64,000 bases of DNA from Chitinophaga pinensis. Lineage in GTDB: Bacteria > Bacteroidota > Bacteroidia > B-17B0 > Aurantibacillaceae. The DNA lies in the NCBI GenBank assembly GCA_945860225.1, contig CAMAPT010000012.1, forward strand, positions 1 through 64,000, in the 5' to 3' direction. The number at the start of each line of letters is the position of its first letter. The first letter of the stretch is position 1. This document shows positions 23,129 to 58,660 of the stretch, piece after piece. The notes beneath the pieces are model-generated. The model saw nothing but the letters and a program-made list of their open reading frames with translations, did not search any database and had not been told where the DNA came from. The translations under genes and the position numbers were made by a program.

Positions 23129-23197
23129 ATGAAATAACCATGCTAAAACCATCACAATTGCATAGCACTCAACGAAACAAGCAATAATAATCTACAT
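23129..23197 (+). repeat. Shortened, diverged copy of the start-codon-anchored palindromic repeat
   Basis: Starts ATGAAATAACCATG, matching 13 of 14 bases of the copy at 58572. Its last 18 bases plus the following ATGAAA are identical to the 24 bases at 58643-58666. The middle (about 37 bases) is unrelated and shorter. As in the other copies, the unit runs exactly up to an ATGAAA that starts a gene. Confidence 0.55.
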
Positions 23198-39505: not shown

Positions 39506-40189
39506 TTACTTACTGATTGTTTGTCCTATTTCTAAAAGGGTTAATGTTTTGCCCTGTATATTAAATTTATTTATAGCTTCTTGCTTGTCGATTGTTATAT
39601 AACCAAACGTGTCATAATGCATTCCTATAACATCTGAACAATGAATAAAATCCTTACAACAAATAATCGCATTGTCTACGCCCATTGTAAAATTGTCGCC
39701 AATTGGTAAAAATGCAAAATCAATTTTACGATATTGCCCAATTAATTTCATATCATAAGTAAGAGCTGTATCTCCTGCATAATAAAAATTTTTATCAGAA
39801 CTTTCAACCACAAATCCCATCGGATTTCCCCCATAAGACCCATCAGGTAAGCTACTGCTGTGTTCAGCTTTTACACATTTAACAGAACCAAAATCAAACA
39901 TTTTTTTACCCCCTGTATTCATTGGATGCGTGTTGGTAATACCTTGTTTTTGAAACCATACATGTATTTCCCAATTACAAATTACAATAGCATTGGTTCT
40001 TTTTGCAATAGAAACCGCATCTGCAATGTGGTCTTCATGTCCATGTGATACAAGAATATAGTCTGCGGAAATGGCATTAACATTGATACCCTTAGCTAAT
40101 TCGTTATATGAGATAAAAGGATCGAACAATAAATGTTTATTATTTATTTCTACTCCAAAACAAGAATGACCGTAATATGTTATTTTCAT
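39506..40189 (-). CDS. Metallo-beta-lactamase-fold hydrolase, UPF0173 (UlaG-like)
   Basis: A 227-residue metal-dependent hydrolase. The metal motif is HGHEDH with His49, His51, Asp53 and His54, and the N-terminus [11 protein letters not shown] is typical of the UPF0173 family. Its substrate is unknown. The stop codon lies seven bases before the parA start. Two tandem copies of a palindromic repeat (40190-40367) occupy the leader right up to its ATG, and a short repeat-encoded frame ends at an overlapping ATGA. Confidence 0.88.
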
Positions 40190-40277
40190 ATGTAGATTTT
40201 ATTTTTTTTAGTTGTCATATGGTATACGCCATGTATCTTCATTTGTGCTTGTGTTTAGGAAAACATGGCTATTTCAT
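40190..40277 (-). repeat. Start-codon-anchored palindromic repeat, copy 2 (proximal)
   Basis: In gene direction it starts ATGAAATAGCCATGT and ends TCTACAT, followed directly by ATGAAA, the start of the hydrolase gene. Inverted arms CATATGGTATACGCCATGT (+ strand 40216-40234) and ACATGGCTATTTCATATG (40263-40280) pair with a few mismatches. Length 88 bp. Its central part (about 40243-40262) is diverged from the other two full copies and lacks their small inner hairpin. Confidence 0.85.
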
Positions 40278-40367
40278 ATGTAGATATTTATTATTTTTTT
40301 AGTTGTCATATGGTATACGCCATGTATCTTCATTTGTTTTTGTGCGCGAAGCACATGGCTATTTCAT
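40278..40367 (-). repeat. Start-codon-anchored palindromic repeat, copy 1 (distal)
   Basis: A 90-bp unit directly in tandem with the 88-bp copy. The first 71 bases differ from the copy at 58572 at one position only. Outer arms GCCATGT/ACATGGC and an inner hairpin TGTGC-TTCGC-GCACA are intact. It ends TCTACAT and runs into the ATGAAATAG start of the proximal copy. Confidence 0.88.
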
Positions 40368-58571: not shown

Positions 58572-58660
58572 ATGAAATAGCCATGTGCTTCGCGCACAAA
58601 CACAAATGAAGATACATGGCGTATACCATATGACAACTAAAAAGCAATAATAATCTACAT
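58572..58660 (+). repeat. Start-codon-anchored palindromic repeat, copy 3
   Basis: An 89-bp unit from ATGAAATAGCCATGTG to TCTACAT, directly followed by the rhodanese start ATGAAA. It has GCCATGT (58580-58586) paired with ACATGGC (58614-58620), an inner hairpin TGTGC-TTCGC-GCACA, and an outer pairing of the flanking TATGAAATA and TATACCATA. The 71 bases at its start differ once from the distal copy at 40278-40367. It may also carry the leader of the rhodanese gene. Confidence 0.88.

Follow-up and report, generated by a model that had tools for sequence, protein, structure and literature searches.

Most short bacterial repeats avoid genes. Here we describe a repeat unit of approximately 85–92 bp, with no gene inside it, whose target is by contrast usually a start codon, and which rebuilds that codon on insertion. 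We consider it probable that the unit is a short, non-autonomous mobile element of the single-strand type that enters (T)ATGAA(A) in one orientation only, an explanation that includes, as an inferred component, a recombinase acting in trans. As such, the element represents a natural route to replacing the translation initiation regions of many genes in bacteria that make no use of Shine-Dalgarno sequences, and the rebuilding of the start codon may explain its persistence in the Bacteroidota. It points, furthermore, to an unidentified recombinase with a five-base target and probably with folded single-strand substrates.

Two tandem units at a hydrolase start codon

The window, that is, the whole stretch of DNA analyzed, comprises 64,000 nucleotides of a Chitinophaga pinensis assembly (GCA_945860225.1, contig CAMAPT010000012.1). 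Within it, a first-pass annotation made from the letters alone had placed two head-to-tail units of 90 and 88 bp at 40190–40367 on the minus strand, immediately before a UPF0173 metallo-hydrolase gene. These coordinates are exact: both units begin ATGAAATAGCCATGT and end TCTACAT, and the proximal unit stops, as claimed, precisely at the ATGAAA start of the hydrolase, the next base, 40189, being the A of the start codon. The distal unit had been said to run into the next ATGAAA, and at the filled site each unit is indeed flanked by ATGAA. The annotation had also named long inverted arms; arms are indeed present, but the sequences given for them were not quite right, the conserved arms being TARCCATG/CATGGYTA on the left and CATATG/CATATG on the right, where the pair takes in the start codon. 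The features of the window are as follows.

40278–40367, minus strand: distal unit, lying upstream, 90 bp, of subfamily A with the inner hairpin GTGC..GCAC
40190–40277, minus strand: proximal unit, 88 bp, a mosaic of a subfamily B left half (GTTTTCCTAAAC) and a subfamily A middle (ACATGGCGTATACC)
40185–40189, minus strand: right-hand copy of the ATGAA target, whose ATG (40189–40187) is the UPF0173 start codon
40363–40367, minus strand: left-hand copy of the ATGAA target, preceded by T
40225–40271, minus strand: stem 1 of the proximal unit, in which TAGCCATG (40271–40264) pairs with CATGGCgTA (40233–40225), with compensatory changes in other copies
40187–40221, minus strand: stem 2 of the proximal unit, in which CATATG (40221–40216) pairs with CAT+ATG (40192–40187), including the start codon
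39506–40189, minus strand: UPF0173 metallo-hydrolase gene, 227 codons, with 17 same-genus orthologues that lack the insert
58572–58660, plus strand: further single unit, 89 bp, that stops precisely where the ATGAAA start (58661) of a rhodanese-like gene begins
23129–23197, plus strand: shortened and altered copy, with another short repeat in its loop, that extends up to the ATGAAA start (23198) of an open reading frame (ORF) of 191 codons

Upstream of the hydrolase gene, an in-frame stop lies three codons before the start codon.

Copy number and spread

The excess of this repeat in the source genome (G000; 2,905,968 bp) is far beyond chance. A BLASTN search with the 186-bp stretch as query returned 41 matching places, and the left-end motif ATGAAATARCCATG, with at most one mismatch, occurs 66 times as opposed to 5 times for a reversed control pattern. 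Fetched loci and an iterated profile together delineate at least 39 arrays containing 58 units (25 arrays of one unit, 10 of two, 3 of three, and 1 of four), and the relatives contribute 59 arrays with 84 units. Matches to a covariance model are distributed over 58 of the 87 genomes of the family and 7 of its 10 genera; three genomes have about 46–48 matches each, which are lower bounds since no more than 48 candidates were scored, the source genome has at least 48, and a relative, G015, has 22. These copy numbers are probably underestimates, because many draft contigs have an end within the element or immediately next to it. Such contig ends are seen at loci L193, L194, L204, L206, L210, L280, and L038.

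The first-pass annotation had stated that its suspicion of a mobile element or a translational leader would be refuted if only the two window copies existed, or if copies lay at random positions relative to start codons. The many dispersed copies found across the genome and its relatives dispose of the former objection. A phage or plasmid origin was considered and rejected, as the exact pattern was not found in viral contigs and BLASTN gave no match in phage and plasmid records. Rfam 15 yielded no match above its gathering score, the only hit, mir-308, scoring 19.2 bits where 60 are required.

Insertion into a short, regenerated target

Orthologous loci that lack the repeat establish that the units were inserted. 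At the hydrolase, 17 same-genus orthologues are empty: their intergenic region (..TTATTAACATTTTgGCgAAGTTAT..CTGTTAAAAACTAAAAAC..) is conserved and continues without interruption into the gene, which mostly begins ATGAAT or ATGAAA, and among the loci compared only the source genome has 178 bp inserted. At the thymidylate synthase gene (thyA), 18 orthologues are empty and the source genome is filled, with the same start codon. The comparison of orthologues that had been proposed to define the inserted segment thus yields clean empty sites at both genes, with ATG present once where the site is empty and ATGAA bordering each unit where it is filled.

Across the ends read in the source genome and its relatives (83 left, 90 right), the target profile is T (70/83, 84%)–ATGAA–A (79/90, 88%), and the orientation of the unit relative to ATGAA is constant in all copies. 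Insertion adds T[ATGAAATANCC...ACAT]ATGAA, leaving the 5-bp ATGAA on both sides (7 bp if the flanking preferences are included). The two borders are unlike, with ATAGCCATG at the left end and, read as the reverse complement, ATGTAGATT at the right; the left end and the reverse-complemented right end do not match, and hence no terminal inverted repeats are present. Where insertion is at a start codon, the protein is left unchanged, since the right-hand ATGAA preserves or restores that codon and an in-frame stop lies a few codons upstream within the unit; because each insertion leaves a fresh ATGAA target, head-to-tail arrays can arise. Some copies have GTG, TTG, or ATGGA at the right end and ATGAA at the left. 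These non-ATGAA right ends lean toward the right-hand copy being the original target, although later mutation cannot be excluded.

Movement of the unit as a whole is indicated by a tagged version in a relative, G014, in which a second palindrome, CCCGATAGCTATCGGG, is nested in the loop. This version has 13 copies, distributed over 11 places and for the most part preceding unrelated genes, and several copies are letter-identical over 104 bp; as it has multiplied with the same two borders, the unit evidently moves intact. The simplest reading is that CCCGATAGCTATCGGG nested once and the tagged unit then spread. In the source genome, the closest copies at unrelated genes differ by approximately 1 base in 90. 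The dispersed copies, the empty sites, the target profile, and the multiplication of a tagged subfamily at different genes lend strong support to the original suggestion that the palindromic element is mobile and uses TATGAAA as its target.

Arrays also preserve a trace of their growth. Distal units score below proximal ones against the profile in 11 of 14 arrays of the source genome and 12 of 17 arrays of the relatives (p ~0.009 each), as expected if distal units are older and new units enter at the intact, gene-adjacent ATGAA, although selection on the gene-proximal unit could contribute. Local duplication must operate as well, given subfamily mosaics (L031, L032, L033, L025, and the window's proximal unit) and neighboring units that are in some cases nearly identical.

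The loop of the element harbors other repeats in several genomes. The palindrome CCCGATAGCTATCGGG or a close form of it occupies the loop at L280–L291 (G014), L124 and L128 (G005), and L176 (G023), and in the source genome further short repeats (CTTCGATAAACTCAGG; TTGCRAAGCACTCAACGAAAC) nest there. In another relative (G018), an entire 4.6-kb contig, L173, is made up of a gene pair present twice in tandem, and its ends bear the element with a different palindrome nested in it. A long element, suggested at this locus by two right ends 4.5 kb apart, was rejected, the content being the two tandem protein-gene pairs and no transposon.

Placement at start codons

In the source genome, the right end coincides with the start codon of a gene in 24 of the 33 arrays in which it is readable, leaving nine that are not at starts. 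The right end opens a long ORF in 49 of 55 arrays of the relatives, or in 50 if a 43-codon lipoprotein-like ORF is counted. The appropriate background is that 20 of the 46 TATGAA sites (43%) outside gene interiors in the source genome are start codons, against which the excess at starts has p = 0.009 there and 2e-7 in the relatives, the latter with the expectation of the source genome; with the longer TATGAAA, the excess in the source genome is only suggestive (p = 0.08). No copies were found inside genes, though approximately 79% of TATGAA sites lie there. Positions are therefore not random relative to starts, and the second of the refutations that had been envisaged also fails.

The genes downstream of the units have unrelated functions. 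Placement is mostly a matter of target sequence and the elimination of insertions that do harm, to which a preference for starts is added. Start codons may be favored as safe sites because, without Shine-Dalgarno sequences in the Bacteroidota, separation of the leader from its ATG would be tolerated, and the element would itself supply an A-rich, AUG-free stretch directly before the new start.

Two covarying stems

The unit has two conserved stems. In stem 1, the left-end TANCCATG pairs with the mid-unit CATGGNTA, and alignment columns 9 and 67 are occupied by GC in 13 sequences, AU in 6, CG in 2, and UA in 1. In stem 2, CATATG pairs with the right-end CAT-ATG, and compensated variants occur in single copies: CATCTG/CAGATG (L173), CATGTG/CACATG (L183), and CACATG/CATGTG (L178), the last at a gene that starts with GTG, matched by CAC. 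Over both stems, five pairs have two-sided changes, where shuffles give 1.6 ± 0.8, and the pairing is lost when the partner strand is shifted. The inner hairpin covaries as well (GTGC/GCAC versus GTTT/AAAC). The stems were seen in a cleaner alignment; a first one, in which the subfamilies were misaligned, gave no RNAalifold structure. Folding energies are modest, with subfamily A (folded as DNA, single-sequence) no better than shuffles and subfamilies B and C better. In the source genome, copies away from starts score about equal to those at starts, from which we infer that structure is selected via mobility and not via each host gene.

Consequences for translation

Each gene preceded by the insert has certainly had its initiation region replaced. 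Initiation in the Bacteroidota is independent of Shine-Dalgarno pairing, and in F. johnsoniae it is tuned by structure and by an A at position −3, with AUG depleted from −21 to −1 (PMC6847099). The unit consensus combines an A-rich, AUG-free end with a C at −3 and a start codon within stem 2. The former may make insertion tolerable; the latter two may mean that translation is lowered or regulated.

The copies could instead be mainly a conserved RNA leader, whose stems, the second of them over the start codon, regulate translation and which is kept at many genes for common control. They do lie in sense orientation before genes, the start codon is inside stem 2 with compensatory changes that include a GTG start matched by CAC, and a few orthologous genes have units in two species (universal stress protein, CcoP-like, rhodanese, and Smr-like). 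This sharing of targets, slightly above a rough chance estimate, keeps the regulatory reading alive and could hint at a selected function or at inherited insertions. However, nine readable arrays of the source genome are away from starts, most orthologues have no unit, the downstream genes are functionally unrelated, and no Rfam family matches. A conserved upstream ORF was likewise rejected, as the internal ATG may be in any of the three frames with respect to the main start, none of which is kept. We therefore judge a primarily regulatory origin unlikely; translational control, itself untested, is not needed to explain the distribution.

The universal stress protein genes mentioned above (66% identical) each carry three tandem units, of different subfamilies (G000:C30:11621-11883 and G015:C34:15347-15620). 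The orthologue in G014 has no detected unit.

A proposed recombinase acting in trans

We return to the mobile element that we favor. A short unit with no gene, inserted in one orientation, with hairpin ends that differ and a fixed target of five bases, probably arises when a trans-acting enzyme recombines its folded single strand. Such a recombinase would recognize the folded strand and join it at ATGAA; the enzyme is unidentified, and the single-strand model is inferred from structure and asymmetry alone. The internal CAT of ACCATATG could act as a guide by pairing with the ATG of the target, in the manner of the IS200/IS605 guides that pair with cleavage sites, although this has not been shown, and the GTG start matched by CAC at L178 is suggestive only. 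More tentatively, and with considerable doubt, the element may be mobile DNA guided to starts by this CAT–ATG pairing, moved by a single-strand recombinase of unknown type, and equipped with its own Shine-Dalgarno-independent initiation leader. If true, each jump would swap the translation start region of a gene and leave its protein untouched.

No mobilizing enzyme was identified. Among the left ends of the source genome, none belongs to a longer, gene-bearing form bounded by the same ends (the relatives were only partly inspected), and an origin from a reverse transcriptase or group II intron was rejected, PF00078 (RVT_1) being absent from that genome.

A REP/REPtron-type or IS200/IS605-derived element, mobilized by a Y1 HUH transposase since lost from the source genome, would share its asymmetric hairpin ends, fixed orientation, and short specific target flank with IS608 (PMC5934647), and 12 of the 20 genomes in the genus contain Y1 genes. 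Nevertheless, PF01797 (Y1_Tnp) is absent from both G000 and G015 despite their at least 48 and 22 model matches, the Y1 loci inspected in the genus adjoin no copy of the element, and the RAYT-type loci checked bear a different REP, ACACCTGTCAGG. On these grounds, the origin was rejected, and we hold it to be improbable. Two RAYT-type Y1 transposase loci (L163 in G014 and L164 in G008) have their own REP, ACACCTGTCAGGTTTTAAAACCTGACAGGTGT, nearby.

The source genome encodes three full tyrosine recombinases, two of which are XerC/XerD-like. The third (L246; G000:C33:318-1718, minus strand) is a 467-amino-acid protein near a contig end, with a catalytic part like that of integron integrases and a weak HARP-like N-terminal match, and its best NCBIfam match is the integron integrase TIGR02249, at 224.8 bits and below the cut-off of 265. 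Relatives of it are widespread in the family, often a few hundred bases from contig ends, as if beside unassembled arrays. That match, and the folded single-strand substrates and head-to-tail arrays that are hallmarks of integrons, are what commend an attC-like substrate of this enzyme, a proposal that is barely credible and was rejected because integrase and element do not co-occur (39 genomes with both, 19 with the element only, 18 with the integrase only, 11 with neither; Fisher p = 0.64) and no copy lies near any of 30 integrase loci.

Comparison with known systems

No description of the element was found in the catalogues and open-access literature searched, although one may exist elsewhere. 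MITEs are likewise small, non-autonomous, and dispersed, but the present element has no terminal inverted repeats and a fixed target sequence instead of a variable duplication; the term "start codon" is absent from a recent review of prokaryotic MITEs (PMC10969869). Integron attC sites also retain structure while their sequence varies and form head-to-tail arrays, whereas this element is dispersed to start codons, has no GTTRRRY core at the joint, and is not associated with an integrase.

Closer parallels are found among elements moved by Y1 enzymes. The REP/REPtron system (TnpAREP/RAYT) consists of repeats that are likewise short, palindromic, intergenic, high-copy, and gene-less, and thought to be mobile as folded single-stranded DNA (PMC8266576). 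In contrast, our element is longer, has two unlike hairpins, targets (T)ATGAA(A) at start codons, and builds head-to-tail arrays; no TnpAREP is present in the source genome, RAYT genes of the genus are accompanied by other REPs, and the foot of stem 1 (ATGAA-A-TANCC) lacks the conserved tetranucleotide, such as GTAG, of a REP palindrome. With the IS200/IS605 family, as exemplified by IS608, it has in common asymmetric subterminal hairpin ends, a fixed target flank, a single orientation, and the lack of terminal inverted repeats. IS608 inserts 3′ of a fixed tetranucleotide that is kept in the left flank and recognized by pairing with hairpin guides (PMC5934647). Here, however, the same five bases stand at both ends, such that each insert constitutes a new target, no Y1 transposase is present, and the unit is only 88 bp.

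The 7-base TAACTGA tandem repeats of Beggiatoaceae, Cyanobacteria, and some Bacteroidetes lie just upstream of the starts of unrelated genes, where a translational role has been proposed (PMC4679880). The likeness is limited to position, since the present element, structured and 88 bp long, regenerates its target, has empty counterparts at orthologous loci, and gives evidence of being mobile. REP elements and IS200/IS605-derived elements are thus its nearest counterparts in kind, and the TAACTGA repeats in position only.
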